Source of the DNA: a virus
Virus record (IMG/VR): IMGVR_UViG_3300047498_000107
Coordinates: 1 to 28,732 of that record
Direction: 5' to 3' (one strand)
DNA length: 28,732 nucleotides
Of this stretch, positions 13,783 to 28,732 are shown one piece after another. Below the pieces are notes generated by a model. It was not told where the DNA came from. It searched no databases and saw nothing but the letters and a program-made list of their open reading frames with translations. Made by a program: the position numbers and the translations under genes. Within the stretch, counting starts at the first letter, position 1, and each line of letters starts with the position of its first letter.

Positions 13783-13939
13783 CGACGGCTGGAATCACCA
13801 AGTTCTGGACTCCCTGAACCACCGGATCCAACAAGTTATTCGCTTGCGCGATACGATTCCACTGGGTCGCATCGTTCAGGTATTTCGCTGCGATGGCGAA
13901 TAGATTGCCGCCGGCAACGGTAATGGTCCGGTTACTCAT
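13751..13939 (-). CDS. LysM-domain tail protein, gpX-like
   Basis: A 62-residue protein that is almost entirely one LysM fold: ITVAGGNLFAIAAKYLNDATQWNRIAQANNL, then VQGVQNLVIP (about 5-50), followed by a Gly/Ala tail. This matches tail protein X of P2-like phages, which links tube-side and hub proteins. Its ATG overlaps the upstream stop (ATGA), and its end overlaps the gpD-like gene. Short, but clearly recognisable and in the canonical place. Confidence 0.88.
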   Translation of the reverse strand: MSNRTITVAGGNLFAIAAKYLNDATQWNRIAQANNLLDPVVQGVQNLVIPAVDATAGGGIAG

Positions 13940-14634
13940 AAAAACTCATTTGCAAGATTGTTTGCGGCACGACTAACATAGCTGCCCATCGCAGTCAGAC
14001 CCGCAAGTTGCGATGAGGCACCAGATAATTGTGTTATCGCCGCCGCACCGGAACTGGCATCCGGAGCGTTGCGGACCGCCGCCGTCGCGCTGGTCAGCAG
14101 CGCGCCGCCGCTGCCGATAGCCGCGCCCAGTACCCCCTGAACCCCGGCAAGTCCGGCTAGGCTGGTCGCGCTCAAGCCCACAAGCGAAACCCCCGCCTGA
14201 CCTGAAAAGCCCGCGGCCACGGTCAGATCATCACCGATCAAATTCGCAAAAGGTGCTGCCATTGAGGCAACCTCCGCTAGCGGATCAGTTACCACAACGC
14301 AGTCTATGGTAAATGGAATTAAATTCGATTTCTGATATTCCGCAGAAAACCTCTCGATGATGACGGTATAGAAAAACCCGTCCCAAATTAGCGGCAGCGC
14401 TGCTCCCAAGGCGCGCGCTGCATCCAATAGCTGCGCCCGTTGCACCGCCTCGCTGCCGGAAAAGACGCCGGAGAACGATATGATACCGTCATCTATGCCG
14501 AGCGCTGACACGACGCGGCCACCACCAATGAGGTTTTGTGTAACCACACGTTGCTTACCGCCGAACGAGATTTTCTCCGGCACTTCCATATCCTGGAACG
14601 GCACACCGCCCAGCGTAAGAATCACATTACTCAT
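13936..14634 (-). CDS. Tail/baseplate protein, gpU-like by position
   Basis: A 232-residue protein between the tape-measure slot and LysM, where P2 gpU or Mu gp43 lies. The first 120 residues fit the general gpU pattern: GGVPFQDMEVPEKISFGGKQ, a GIDDGIISFSGVFSG segment near 47-61, and PLIWDGFFYTVIIERFSAEY (about 80-100). The last 100 residues are Ala/Gly/Ser-rich and low in charge, an extension absent from P2 gpU. AGGA lies 9 bases before the ATG. Likely role: cap at the hub-proximal end of the tube. The family call is tentative. Confidence 0.6.
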   Translation of the reverse strand: MSNVILTLGGVPFQDMEVPEKISFGGKQRVVTQNLIGGGRVVSALGIDDGIISFSGVFSGSEAVQRAQLLDAARALGAALPLIWDGFFYTVIIERFSAEYQKSNLIPFTIDCVVVTDPLAEVASMAAPFANLIGDDLTVAAGFSGQAGVSLVGLSATSLAGLAGVQGVLGAAIGSGGALLTSATAAVRNAPDASSGAAAITQLSGASSQLAGLTAMGSYVSRAANNLANEFL

Positions 14635-14643
14635 AAAGGAATC

Positions 14644-15696
14644 CTAAAGCGCTTGTGTCAGACCAGCCCAAGCTGGCGTTAGGCGAGGATCAAATGCGCT
14701 GCCGCCCGATGGCGGCAAGCGCGCCTGGCGAAAAAAGAATTCTCCCAGCGCATCAGAAAAATTTTGCTGCGCGGATGCCGGGATGTTCTCGCCTTGCCAA
14801 GCACCTTTACGCTGTTCGGAACCAAAATCCACTGAGGCGGTCAAGGCACTCTTAGCACTGCCGAAACTCATTGCGTGACTTTCCTGGCGTCCTTCACCTA
14901 CGCTGAAAAATCCAGCGCGACCCTGTTCAGGTAAAATCTGCCTCCCGGTTTCCATAGACTGAGCGCCCCGGATCGCTGTCAGTCGGGTCTCAACGGGCGC
15001 AAATGATCGAATGTTATGCCGACGTCCCTCAGATGAGCGAATCTGGTCCGTTCCTTTTGCTCCACCGGACCAAACGTCATGCAACGTCCGCATCATACGC
15101 GCCCCATCTGCCGACATCGGACCGACGGGCTGAAAAGTCCGGCGCGTCGTCATCCACGACGGTGGACGAGCCTTATTCTTCAACAAAACCGATACATCCC
15201 ATGTATCCGTTGATCCTTTTTGTATAACTTCACTCGTCCTATGTAATCCTGCCGATTGAATTATCGCTCCTGCGGCCAGTGGCAGTGAGGCAAGTACTGT
15301 GGGCTTTCTGTATCGGCGGCTCAACGAGATTAATGGTGTCTTCGACGAAAATTTCGACGTCCCGGCTCCGACACCAGATTCAATATCCCAGGCCACAGAG
15401 GGTATCCCAGGTGAAAGATGCGCTTCTATTATGCCGTCATCCGATGAGTGCGTCTGAAAACCGCCGGTTTTCGACCGCCGCAATTGCCTCCATAATGGCG
15501 AAAACCGCGACATTTTGGCCTGAAAATTGGGATGGCCCCACACGGAATGTATGGTGAAATTCTCATAATCACGCGTGCTCAAGCCAAAGTTCATCTTCGC
15601 TGGTGACAAGTTCCGGCTAAGATCAAACGAGTTTCTTGCGGCAAAAAGCAGCCATTTCGAAAGCCCCAGAACATCGGGCACCTTTGTAAAAGACAT
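14644..15696 (-). CDS. Short protein in the tape-measure slot
   Basis: A 350-residue protein placed exactly where the tail tape measure is expected, after the tail assembly chaperone and before the gpU-like gene. It lacks the long helical, hydrophobic make-up of normal tape measures: it is rich in Arg, Ser and Gly, with one hydrophobic patch near residues 134-148 (VLASLPLAAGAIIQS). The C-terminus, RQARLPPSGGSAFDPRLTPAWAGL, is a motif I associate with the end of phage tail proteins of this slot. At about 0.15 nm per residue it would span only about 50 nm. The frame is unbroken, so it is not obviously a pseudogene. It could be a shortened tape measure or a remnant that kept its ends. Confidence 0.5.
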   Translation of the reverse strand: MSFTKVPDVLGLSKWLLFAARNSFDLSRNLSPAKMNFGLSTRDYENFTIHSVWGHPNFQAKMSRFSPLWRQLRRSKTGGFQTHSSDDGIIEAHLSPGIPSVAWDIESGVGAGTSKFSSKTPLISLSRRYRKPTVLASLPLAAGAIIQSAGLHRTSEVIQKGSTDTWDVSVLLKNKARPPSWMTTRRTFQPVGPMSADGARMMRTLHDVWSGGAKGTDQIRSSEGRRHNIRSFAPVETRLTAIRGAQSMETGRQILPEQGRAGFFSVGEGRQESHAMSFGSAKSALTASVDFGSEQRKGAWQGENIPASAQQNFSDALGEFFFRQARLPPSGGSAFDPRLTPAWAGLTQAL

Positions 15697-15782: not shown

Positions 15783-15953
15783 TCAAAGATCATCCCAACA
15801 CAAACGCGTCCAGTCAAACATCAAGCCTGACAACTCACCGCAAACCACAACATAGGCCAGCCGGTCCACGTCGTCCAAGCCAAACGCAACCTCATAGGGC
15901 ACCCCGCACCTCACCAGATACAGGCAATCTATCAGCGCCGGGTGCCTGGCTAG
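15783..15953 (-). CDS. Tail assembly chaperone, frameshifted C-terminal extension (T domain)
   Basis: After a -1 shift at 15953-15959 the frame stays open for 56 further codons to TGA at 15783-15785. It begins LARHPALIDCLYLVRCGVPY and ends FDWTRLCWDDL. The fused product would be 155 residues against 99 for the unshifted form, like lambda gpG and gpGT. The extension has no start codon of its own and no other gene occupies this stretch. Its aromatic and acidic composition looks protein-coding. In related systems the long form recruits the tape measure and tube subunits during tail assembly. Confidence 0.8.
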   Translation of the reverse strand, partial: LARHPALIDCLYLVRCGVPYEVAFGLDDVDRLAYVVVCGELSGLMFDWTRLCWDDL

Positions 15954-16249
15954 TTTCCCGCTTCGGCCGCCGTGTCGGATCCACTACCCATTGCCGCGGC
16001 AACGAGCGGCATGGCATCCAGCCCGATCCGTTCAAGTGCTGCTTCTACACCAGCTTCATTCGTCGGAAGCAGTAATGGCACATCGTCAATCATCGCCACG
16101 GCGGCGGCAATGAACGCGCCATGCATGTAAGGTTGATTAACGGAAAGCTCTGGCCCGAGTGCTTTGAACAAGCGGAGCTGCTCGACCACGCCGACCTTAC
16201 GCAATTGCAGCCTCCGTCCGGCCTTGTCAATCAAGATTTCCATCATCAT
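15950..16249 (-). CDS. Tail assembly chaperone (G-type short form)
   Basis: A 99-residue protein starting at the first of three consecutive ATGs and overlapping the tube gene stop by 4 bases. It sits between tail tube and tape-measure slot, the canonical place for chaperones. The N-terminus EILIDKAGRRLQLRKVGVVEQLRLFKALG is typical of tail assembly chaperones. It ends TAAEAGN at TAG, directly after a slippery heptamer that lets part of the ribosomes produce a 155-residue fusion. Function in the family: binds and spaces the tape measure before tube polymerisation. It is not expected in the finished particle. Confidence 0.85.
   Translation of the reverse strand: MMMEILIDKAGRRLQLRKVGVVEQLRLFKALGPELSVNQPYMHGAFIAAAVAMIDDVPLLLPTNEAGVEAALERIGLDAMPLVAAAMGSGSDTAAEAGN
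15953..15959 (-). promoter_or_regulatory. -1 programmed frameshift slippery site
   Basis: On the minus strand the heptamer G GGA AAC lies in the exact X XXY YYZ phase, directly followed by the in-frame stop TAG (15950-15952). A 6-bp hairpin can form four bases downstream of the heptamer (CAGGCA at 15943-15948 with TGCCTG at 15921-15926). An alternative 7-bp stem pairs GGCACCC (15940-15946) with GGGTGCC (15898-15904). This mirrors the GGGAAAG site of lambda G/GT. Confidence 0.82.
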
Positions 16250-16674
16250 ACCCGGGTCCGACCAGATGCAAAAAAATCGAGTTTCTGCGTGACGGGAGCG
16301 TCCCCGCGATAAGCACCAGCCGAGGTCAATTTGAAAACAGCCCCGTTAAATTGGTAGGTGGAGGTCGAGCCATCGGGCTCGCTAACATACTGATACAGAG
16401 TTCCTGCCGCGATCGATTGACCGGCCAGATATGCCGCTTCAATTTGCGCGATGAAATCATCTGCTACAGATGAACCACGATCGAGCGCGAAACTTCCCGA
16501 CCAACCTTTTGGCAGTTCGGCGCCCAGTTGCACGCCGTCCAACCGATCCACGCGCACTGCCATCGTGATCTGCCGCGCCTCAAATCCAGTTACATGCGCG
16601 AGATCGACACGACCGAACGGCCCCATCACAACGAGCTGACAATCATTTCCAACCGAAAAAGTATTATAAGGCAT
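16246..16674 (-). CDS. Tail tube protein
   Basis: A 142-residue protein directly after the sheath gene. It begins with a motif typical of contractile tail tubes (NTFSVGNDCQLVVMGPFGRVDLAHVTGFEARQ), then has KGWSGSFALDRGSSVADDFIAQIEAAYLAG (about 57-86). The C-terminus forms a beta strand ending QKLDFFASGRTRV. A good ribosome-binding site (GGGAGAG) lies upstream, and its end overlaps the chaperone start. Role: stacked hexamers forming the DNA conduit inside the sheath. The length is close to usual for this class. Confidence 0.85.
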   Translation of the reverse strand: MPYNTFSVGNDCQLVVMGPFGRVDLAHVTGFEARQITMAVRVDRLDGVQLGAELPKGWSGSFALDRGSSVADDFIAQIEAAYLAGQSIAAGTLYQYVSEPDGSTSTYQFNGAVFKLTSAGAYRGDAPVTQKLDFFASGRTRV

Positions 16675-16691: not shown

Positions 16692-18245
16692 TCAGCCGTT
16701 AGACGGAATTGTCTGAACACTCACCTGCACCGTCTGGCCACCCTGCACATTGACGATAAATTTCTCGTTGATGGCCTGGTACTGCACTTGCACATCCGCC
16801 TGAACATACCCCAAGGCTGTCCGGGTGACCGGGTTGTTGCTGATATCGCAAACTACGGCAAAGGATAGCGCGCTGGTGGTACTGCCCAACATTCCCTGCG
16901 ACAACAGCCCATTTAAAAATGCCAGGAGCGTTGCTCTGATATTCTGGAACAATGTGGAATTGACGAGTTGGCCGACATAGGCACCCATGCCGCTCGCCAA
17001 GGTGCTGGCGATATAATTGGTCAGCCGCGTATAGTTGTCGCCATTTATTGAGGCGTTGGAGGACGAGTTGTGGCCGCCGCGCACACCCCAATACGCGCCG
17101 CCTGGCTGCGGGTTGGCGATCACGTCAATGCCCGCACTTAGAAGCACGGACAGATCCGCACTCGCATAAGTCGTTGCCGTCCCGCCGCCTGGCTGTCCAG
17201 ATTTCTGTGTACCTATAACGCCGTAGAGGGGTTTGTTGAGCGATGATTGTTCCGGAGACAGATTGGCGAGTCGGCCCGCCACAAAACCTTGTGGCGAAAC
17301 CAACCTGGTCAGCGCATTCGCCTGATCCGACCAATACACCCAATCGCCAAACATCAGCTTGGCGGCGTAACTATCCACGCCAGCTTCGGCCTTAACCGTC
17401 ACCGCATTGGCGATCGTGTCGCCAGACGGACCTGTTAGAATCATATAGACACTTTCAGAGAGGCCGAACGCGGTTTGCACACTCCAATGCGTTGAATCAT
17501 CTACGTCAGCAAGCAAAGCAATGGCACAACCTTGCGAACGCAGCGCGTACATCCCTAACCGCGGCAGCGAATCAGTTCCCACCAGCATCGTCGCCGAAAT
17601 ACCTCCGGCGCCATCTGACCCTGGCGTGCCGGCGCCGAACGAAAACACGCCCGCTAGCGGTGTGGTCGTGCCTGCGAGCGCCGTCGCCACCACGAGCTGT
17701 GATGGACCACGCAGGGCGCCGTTGCCGTTATTGACGGCGTTCGCCAGATTCGCCCAGAATGTGGGACCACTCCCGGCAATATTGTCATAGATTTCAGGAT
17801 TCTGACCCGGAATTGCTACGGCAAGTCGCCACGTGCTCGCAGCTGACCCGGCGGAAAATGTCAGACTCAGCTGGGTGCCGAGACTCCCTGTATAAATAGC
17901 GGTAAAAGTGACGGCACCAAGCACTGTCAGCGACGCAGCACTGTCGGTTCCATCAGTGACCCGCACACAGCGAAAATTCCCTGCACCCTGCTGCACGGCT
18001 GTCGCCACCTGTGTTCCCATATCATATTTTCGTGCCATGACAGGGCCGAAACTCGTTGCATAGTCACTCATGCTGCCGACAATCGTCGGCTCTCCCACCG
18101 GCCCCCAGCTGGCACTGCCTACAACGCCGCAAACGTCAGTCGGTACGCCGTTTAGCAACAACGACTGCGGCGGCACGATTTGGACATATAAATCAGGTAC
18201 GATCAGCGCTGTGGTATTGATGGCGCCCTGCTGCACAATCGGCAT
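16692..18245 (-). CDS. Contractile tail sheath protein
   Basis: A 517-residue sheath subunit. The N-terminal arm (TTALIVPDLYVQIVPPQSLLLNGVPTDVCGVVGSASWGPVGEP) is the classic opening of phage sheath proteins, with VGSASWGPVGEP at 42-53. The C-terminal part contains RLTNYIASTLASGMGAYVG and NPVTRTALGYVQADVQVQYQAINEKFIVNV, which match the conserved sheath C-terminal domain. GGAGG lies 8 bases before the ATG. Presence of a full-length sheath next to a tube gene establishes a myovirus-type tail. It is preceded by a 45-residue protein whose stop is one base away. Confidence 0.95.
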   Translation of the reverse strand: MPIVQQGAINTTALIVPDLYVQIVPPQSLLLNGVPTDVCGVVGSASWGPVGEPTIVGSMSDYATSFGPVMARKYDMGTQVATAVQQGAGNFRCVRVTDGTDSAASLTVLGAVTFTAIYTGSLGTQLSLTFSAGSAASTWRLAVAIPGQNPEIYDNIAGSGPTFWANLANAVNNGNGALRGPSQLVVATALAGTTTPLAGVFSFGAGTPGSDGAGGISATMLVGTDSLPRLGMYALRSQGCAIALLADVDDSTHWSVQTAFGLSESVYMILTGPSGDTIANAVTVKAEAGVDSYAAKLMFGDWVYWSDQANALTRLVSPQGFVAGRLANLSPEQSSLNKPLYGVIGTQKSGQPGGGTATTYASADLSVLLSAGIDVIANPQPGGAYWGVRGGHNSSSNASINGDNYTRLTNYIASTLASGMGAYVGQLVNSTLFQNIRATLLAFLNGLLSQGMLGSTTSALSFAVVCDISNNPVTRTALGYVQADVQVQYQAINEKFIVNVQGGQTVQVSVQTIPSNG

Positions 18246-27493: not shown

Positions 27494-28732
27494 TCAAAGA
27501 TCGGTAGGTGCTAACAACCTCAACTCGCCATAAACACCGCTCTCGCGTGAGAAATTCCGGTTGTAAAAGGGATCATGCGGCAATATTTTGCCATGTCTCT
27601 GCCGCATAACCTCATTCTCCAGCATGAACCTCGCAATTTTTCGTTCGTCAAAATCATCGCCGCGGCTAATGCTCTCGCGGTGCTCGGCAACCGCATCGGG
27701 TGCATAAATTATGCCCCAACCAGCAGCAGACAGCCGAACACAGAGATCGACATCGTTGAACGCCACAGATAGCTCAGCTTCATCGAATCCACCTACGCCA
27801 TCAAATGCACAACGTCGCACGAGCATGCAAGCCGCGGTGACCGCGGATATCTGCTGTGTTGCGATGGCCCGTAGCACATAGCCTGGAGCGTCTGCGGCTA
27901 TTCCCCTGAACGCGTGATCTGCGACCCCGCCTACGCCCAACACGACGCCAGCATGTTGCACCGTGCCATTTGGATAGATCAATTTGGCACCAACCGCCCC
28001 CACCCCCTCGTTGATTAAGCATTCGTTCAGCATTCGGCGGAGCCAAAACGGCTCTCGTACGATCACATCGTTATTCAAAAACAGCACGAACGGCGCGCTC
28101 GTGGCTTGCACGCCTATATTATTAAGCCTTGAATAATTGAACGGCTCAAGAATGCGGATCACTTTTGTGTGAGGTGTGTTTGCCTGCGCGGTGGTAAACG
28201 CTTCTGCCTCCGGCGAGGTCGACCAATTGTCCAAGAGAACGATCTCATATTGAACGTCCTTAGTATTGGCCCGAATAGCTGCGACGCACTCAGCCGTCAT
28301 TTCAATATGATCCCTGAAAGGGATCAGGATTGAAACACGAGCGGCCCGTGCCGTCGCCGCTGCTGGCTTCCAGTCCAATTGATAGCAGGTCAGTCCGGCG
28401 CGAGCGCTGACCTCAACATTGATTTGTCGCCTCCTAAGATGCGCTGCGACAGCCGCCGCGCCCGCCCTCGCTGCCATCGGTTTAGCACCCGAGCCAGCGG
28501 TAGCCGTCGAGTTCGCAGCTTTACGCCAATGGTACAAAATTTCCGGCACGTGATGGATCTGCCGAGGGTCCAGCACCTCCGAAACGCGCAGCAGAAAATC
28601 ATGGTCCTGGGCGCCGTCCAACTGGCTGTCCAGAACACCCACCACGGTAAAAAGTGCGGCCTCGACCATCACAAGGTGACATATATAATTGACCTCGAGC
28701 AGAAAACGATAGTTGAAATCCGGCTTGAAATG
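27494..28732 (-). CDS. Glycosyltransferase family 2 protein, 5' end outside window
   Basis: 412 visible residues, open to the window edge without a start, so the gene continues to the right. The first visible part (NYICHL, then DGAQDHDFLLRV near 39-50) looks like the end of a first GT-A domain, comparable with the 'GSQDYDL' motif of such proteins. A second GT-A domain begins at about 133 (VSILIPFRD) and carries LLDNWS near 166-171, FLNNDVIV (218-225) in the DxD place, FNDVDLCVRL (325-334) and AEHRES. Likely transfers sugars to a surface polysaccharide. Presumably host chromosome at the prophage edge, though a phage serotype gene cannot be excluded. It is convergent with the repressor gene, separated by 54 bases. 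Confidence 0.85.
   Translation of the reverse strand, partial: HFKPDFNYRFLLEVNYICHLVMVEAALFTVVGVLDSQLDGAQDHDFLLRVSEVLDPRQIHHVPEILYHWRKAANSTATAGSGAKPMAARAGAAAVAAHLRRRQINVEVSARAGLTCYQLDWKPAAATARAARVSILIPFRDHIEMTAECVAAIRANTKDVQYEIVLLDNWSTSPEAEAFTTAQANTPHTKVIRILEPFNYSRLNNIGVQATSAPFVLFLNNDVIVREPFWLRRMLNECLINEGVGAVGAKLIYPNGTVQHAGVVLGVGGVADHAFRGIAADAPGYVLRAIATQQISAVTAACMLVRRCAFDGVGGFDEAELSVAFNDVDLCVRLSAAGWGIIYAPDAVAEHRESISRGDDFDERKIARFMLENEVMRQRHGKILPHDPFYNRNFSRESGVYGELRLLAPTDL

Follow-up and report, generated by a model that had tools for sequence, protein, structure and literature searches.

A conserved candidate −1 frameshift signal with an abutting stop codon at a predicted tail assembly chaperone locus of Acetobacteraceae phages

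The 28.7-kb (28,732-nt) virus record IMGVR_UViG_3300047498_000107, the whole of which was analysed and is referred to here as the window, carries a short tail gene, G, whose stop codon lies at the edge of a second open frame, T, set one base back. This raises the question of whether T is translated as an extension of G and, if so, which parts of the surrounding sequence make up the signal. The evidence set out below makes it very probable that this is a G/GT chaperone locus of an Acetobacteraceae contractile-tailed phage that would use canonical −1 programmed ribosomal frameshifting.

The G–T locus and its neighbours

All locus coordinates refer to the minus strand, along which the order is terminase, portal, capsid, head–tail genes, sheath, tube, G, T, a 350-aa gene, a 232-aa gene and baseplate genes. 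The parts considered here are as follows.

16692–18245, minus strand: tail sheath protein (phrog_23, E 9.7e-49)
16246–16674, minus strand: tail tube protein, overlapping the start of G (position after the sheath; phrog_12993, a PHROG without assigned function)
15950–16249, minus strand: G, predicted short tail assembly chaperone of 99 aa, read in the zero frame as far as TAG (ORF, fold; phrog_20383, also a PHROG without assigned function)
15783–16249, minus strand: putative G–T fusion, 155 aa, via a −1 shift at the heptamer (reading frames, conservation)
15953–15959, minus strand: slippery heptamer G_GGA_AAC (in phase in all relatives)
15950–15952, minus strand: zero-frame stop TAG abutting the heptamer (adjacent in most relatives, CTA enrichment)
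15783–15953, minus strand: T extension, 56 codons, −1 frame, stop TGA at 15785–15783 (open conserved frame, no upstream start)
15940–15946, minus strand: 5′ arm of the stem, GGCACCC, with a 6-nt spacer to the heptamer (folding, conservation)
15898–15904, minus strand: 3′ arm of the stem, GGGTGCC (folding, conservation, frozen wobble bases)
14644–15696, minus strand: tape-measure-like gene, 350 aa, in the canonical slot (position, conserved C-terminus RQARLPPSG..FDPRLTPAW)
13936–14634, minus strand: 232-aa gene, downstream of the 350-aa gene

G ends in GCG GGA AAC TAG, with GGGAAAC at 15959–15953 in the phase G_GGA_AAC, and the −1 frame read from CTA (15953) runs for 56 codons, LARHPALIDCLYLVRCGVPYEVAFGLDDVDRLAYVVVCGELSGLMFDWTRLCWDDL, before its TGA, giving a fusion of 99 + 56 = 155 residues. 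The initial annotation had described just such a heptamer followed without a gap by TAG, together with a 155-residue G–T form beside a 99-residue G, and both coordinates and reading frames were verified on the minus strand. Its further claim, that T has no start of its own, agrees with the window, where no ATG, GTG or TTG occurs among the 10 open upstream codons of the −1 frame. As a bare string GGGAAAC is not rare (four occurrences in the window against 3.2 expected), and the case therefore rests on phase, position and conservation.

What kind of protein is G? HMM searches of PHROG, Pfam and NCBIfam yielded no curated chaperone profile that matches G, and a sequence profile search of the PDB found nothing. 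When an AlphaFold (AF2) model of G (pLDDT 89.8) was aligned with 35 chains, the HK97 chaperone 2OB9 (VIA Z 6.4) and YqbN 3KLU (6.1) came out on top; the alignments span 84–86 residues with moderate scores, the Foldseek E value is 0.46, and predicted viral chaperones recur among the Foldseek matches of the model. When gene order was tested, G was found between the tail tube and tape-measure-like genes, as expected of a G/GT-type chaperone. Gene order and the likeness of the model thus argue strongly that G is a tail assembly chaperone and, with the conservation described below, agree with the earlier proposal of a chaperone with a −1 frameshift, the G–T form being its predicted product.

The 350-aa gene has no match in PHROG, Pfam or NCBIfam, and its tape-measure identity is taken from its position and conserved C-terminus. 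In the window's group the tape-measure-like protein measures ~244–496 aa, of which only the ~39 C-terminal residues are conserved (RQARLPPSG..FDPRLTPAW.G). In the window and most relatives this gene comes next after T, but it is missing from the slot in 24, where T is directly followed by the gene for a 232-aa-type protein (the two gene orders were noted with loci L069, L073, L103, L104 and L105). The idea that such phages are ‘tape-measure-less’ was rejected: a profile of the C-terminus (A4) finds the gene in 14 of 14 genomes tested, in several of them on the same contig ~15.6 kb downstream of G, past tail-fibre-like genes, so that the chaperone and tape-measure-like genes are unlinked there. 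In loci L005, L006, L007, L012, L039, L044 and L045, T and the 232-aa-type gene are up to 3.7 kb apart; additional ORFs lie between them, some of which, in L005 and L006, begin like signal peptides, and the region is possibly a cargo site in the tail operon. Outside the structural module, near the right edge of the record, lies an ORF judged by eye to be glycosyltransferase-like (27494–28672, minus strand).

Heptamer and downstream stem in the relatives

At the protein level, G alone led to 2 viral loci and T alone to 29; a T alignment then gave 63, and bacterial genomes, chiefly of Acidocella and Acidiphilium, gave 31. A diverse T alignment (A5) proved too variable to scan with. Two further sets, for which the site was ignored in the search, came from distant T (18 loci) and from the G protein of Komagataeibacter phage phiKX1 (29 loci). 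A tblastn search of GT against 50,697 phages gave no match; relatives were reached via the sheath. Pooled, the protein-found set comprises 121 distinct sites selected by protein similarity alone; L063 and L065, where the locus ends at a contig edge, were left unscored.

An in-phase XXXYYYZ heptamer is present at all 121 sites, as GGGAAAC in 72, AAAAAAC in 47 and GGGAAAT and AAAAAAT in one each. GGGAAAC is thus swapped for AAAAAAC, AAAAAAT or GGGAAAT among the relatives, every version being slippery. The window and phiKX1 share only 24 of 99 aligned residues in G and yet both keep the frameshift site, which is thus more durable than the protein sequence. T is a ~56-aa domain whose conservation is confined to the −1 frame. 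Comparison of homologues, which the initial annotation had put forward as a check and, should the heptamer be destroyed or the −1 frame stopped, as a refutation, therefore bears out both heptamer and frame. In one prophage (L302/L139, IMGVR_UViG_2585427931_000004) T is apparently broken by a frame change near its GVP motif while heptamer and stop are intact; this is possibly a decaying prophage. Upstream, a search for a Shine–Dalgarno-like stimulator found no conserved motif beyond GC just before the heptamer.

Downstream of the heptamer, RNAalifold and direct counting identify one helix, pairing columns 14–20 with 56–62 counted from the heptamer (15946–15940 with 15904–15898 in the window). 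This stem, GGCACCC/GGGTGCC, begins 6 nt past the heptamer, the usual spacer being 5–9 nt (PMC7618472), and the hairpin built on its 7 bp dominates in most of the sub-stretches folded, with pair probabilities of 0.75–1.0. Two mutually exclusive hairpins had been proposed here from the window alone: a competing fold does reach ~50% in one truncation of the sequence, but only the 7-bp stem is backed by the homologues. The middle and inner helices of the predicted hairpin were rejected as poorly conserved (40–44% unpaired cells at two middle-helix pairs); they are also absent from a column-pair helix search, which found no conserved second helix or pseudoknot. Two other candidate helices, set aside, share the same 3′ arm and consist mostly of G–U pairs. 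At a threshold as loose as E 10, Rfam covariance models still gave nothing relevant, and the element is absent from Rfam.

Both arms of the stem fall in conserved codons, and the stem might be a by-product of the conserved RHP and GVP peptide motifs, leaving the heptamer to act alone. All seven pairs, however, form in 109 of 121 relatives and in just 15.7% of redraws that keep the T peptide and resample synonymous codons, the mean MFE being −30.3 kcal/mol in relatives against −20.1 in redraws; the comparison is conservative, because the codons of the stem itself are part of the pool drawn from. Wobble bases within the stem are fixed or nearly so (third base of CGG/AGG in 73 of 73, of GGG in 80 of 81 and of GTG in 81 of 81), whereas Pro codons beside it use all four third bases. 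One stem pair is changed in compensatory fashion in L032, from C–G to G–C, and C–G to U–G variants still pair. Four further loci, L098–L101, have the same GGCAYCC bases in another codon phase (RAS/RAP), although these were found with the DNA pattern itself (see below). In favour of a by-product, 7 of 121 relatives, including subclades in which RHP has become RSP and GVP has become GIP or GIA, retain four of the seven stem pairs; the stem is thus not indispensable. On balance we judge the by-product explanation improbable, and comparison of the relatives shows selection on the stem, as on the stop discussed below.

Substitutions of this kind are seen in L288, L289 and L298–L301 (GGTCCCCG), where heptamer and stop are unaltered and a weaker, shifted pairing of UCCC with GGGA is possible.

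Entry into the T frame and the abutting stop

T could also be a separate small gene reached with no frameshift at all, by initiation at a start codon belonging to T or by ribosomes reinitiating once they have terminated on G. The phiKX1 record lists T in this way, as an ORF from an internal ATG, and an abutting stop would suit termination–reinitiation. However, 77 of 82 relatives have no ATG, GTG or TTG in the −1 frame upstream of T, a frame that in 11 relatives opens just 3 codons before T, and the ATG annotated in phiKX1 is internal to the conserved domain, so that a start there would drop LSRHPV. Nor does a separate gene explain the universal XXXYYYZ and the heptamer swaps, and we regard it as very unlikely. 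Less probable still is transcriptional slippage by RNA polymerase: a six-A run, a mild slippage run, is found in 47 of 121 relatives, but 72 (including the window) have GGGAAAC with a longest run of three, the conserved feature is the in-phase XXXYYYZ of tandem tRNA re-pairing and not a homopolymer, and a stem at 6-nt spacing fits the ribosome.

For programmed −1 ribosomal frameshifting, the preferred reading, we infer the slippage itself, its rate and the roles of stem and stop as follows. A ribosome decoding GGA AAC would move back by one base and re-pair on GGG AAA, aided by the stem-loop 6 nt downstream; most ribosomes would stop at the abutting codon to give G, and a minority would continue in the −1 frame to give G–T. 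Counting against it, in an A_AAA_AAN series in E. coli an A-site AAC is reported to be less shift-prone than AAG (PMC5009743).

The position of the stop is itself conserved. The zero-frame stop adjoins the heptamer in 115 of 121 relatives (TGA in 79, TAG in 24, TAA in 12); in the remaining six it lies 3 nt away in three and 18 nt away in three. The first T codon is Leu, for which CTA is used in 32 of 81 cases, as against 19 of the 779 Leu codons within G (2.4%). Before a G, CTA is the Leu codon that yields a stop, and of the 24 Leu codons in that context 22 are CTA, CTT (once) or CTC (once), and one is TTA; before an A, the codon is either CTG (giving TGA) or CTA (giving TAA). That so rare a codon is used so often at this one place indicates, from codon choice, that the abutting stop is under selection. 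In annotated phage chaperones the heptamer averages 26–36 nt from the stop (PMC10885494), which makes it distinctive that in 95% of this family a stop under selection directly adjoins the heptamer.

Given that all three stops occur and that rare CTA retains one, pausing at the stop or competition with release factors would, on a tentative reading, combine with the fixed stem to set the G:GT ratio. The abutting stop might then be an active part of the signal, and the whole a recoding module found throughout this lineage of Acetobacteraceae phages. If so, the module would be an RNA element better conserved than the protein encoded upstream of it.

The signal as a DNA pattern and its place among known systems

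The signal is compact and conserved enough for a plain DNA pattern to find the gene. When AAAC-TRR-NNN-GGCAYCC-N28-40-GGGGTGCC was scanned in IMG/VR, at least 120 stretches carried it, and five carried a version lengthened by a single spacer base. Among the matches listed (81 distinct, both scans), GGG or AAA precedes AAAC in 80, completing an XXXYYYZ that the pattern does not request, and those 80 encode chaperone-like G and T; the one remaining match may belong to a tRNA gene. In bacteria, the pattern occurs in 35 of 100 genomes of the Acetobacteraceae, the family of Acidocella aromatica genome G006. A class sample of 385 genomes gave two matches, both in genomes belonging to the Acetobacteraceae list, and none outside that family; a reversed control pattern had zero matches in the bacterial genomes scanned.

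The whole signal (heptamer, abutting stop, 6-nt spacer and stem) is thus near-unchanged among G proteins with about a quarter of their residues in common. The natural series it offers, of GGG or AAA, of TGA, TAG or TAA and of stem variants, would suit experiments on what stop and stem contribute to −1 shifting outside E. coli. The signal could also serve to correct annotations in which T is split off or missing.

One such case is phiKX1 (LC644975, L097), an induced contractile-tailed phage with tails of ~99 nm. Its record has an unannotated putative −1 frameshift site at 14842–15045 and gives G and T as separate hypothetical proteins, PhiKX1_580 and PhiKX1_590, the latter lacking the first T residues; the word frameshift is absent from the main text of the phiKX1 paper. 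Like the window, phiKX1 has a heptamer (A_AAA_AAC) followed at once by a stop (TGA), a 6-nt spacer, a stem (GGCACCCCG/CGGGGTGCC) and T in the −1 frame; it differs in having AAA for GGG and a tape-measure candidate of 742 aa. The chaperone of phiKM1, considered as a similar case, was rejected: it is encoded in a single frame with no similar site.

HK97 2OB9 and Bacillus YqbN 3KLU may share the fold of G, but at ~10% sequence identity and with no profile match, and HMM comparison found no sequence relationship of G to a curated chaperone family. Mu FS-gp41, the frameshifted tail assembly protein of a contractile-tailed myophage, is a weak Foldseek match (rank 25, E 0.48).

G/GT frameshifting is textbook knowledge, and the slippery heptamer of lambda is GGGAAAG. 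As in lambda, a short chaperone and a −1 extended form are encoded among tail genes, with the heptamer near the end of G and T after it. Unlike lambda, this is a contractile-tailed phage, the heptamer ends in AAC and not AAG, the stop abuts it, and a conserved 7-bp stem follows at 6 nt; GGGAAAC and AAAAAAC are both known g–t sites of haloarchaeal viruses (PMC5009743). The partner of lambda G is the tape measure and that of T is the tube (PMC5009743, summarising Levin 1993 and Xu 2004, 2013 and 2014), and by analogy the partners would be the same here, with G binding the tape measure, T recruiting the tube subunit and the G:GT ratio being important. The locus thus falls in the known lambda G/GT-type frameshift class, of which it is a new, well-conserved and unusually clean member.
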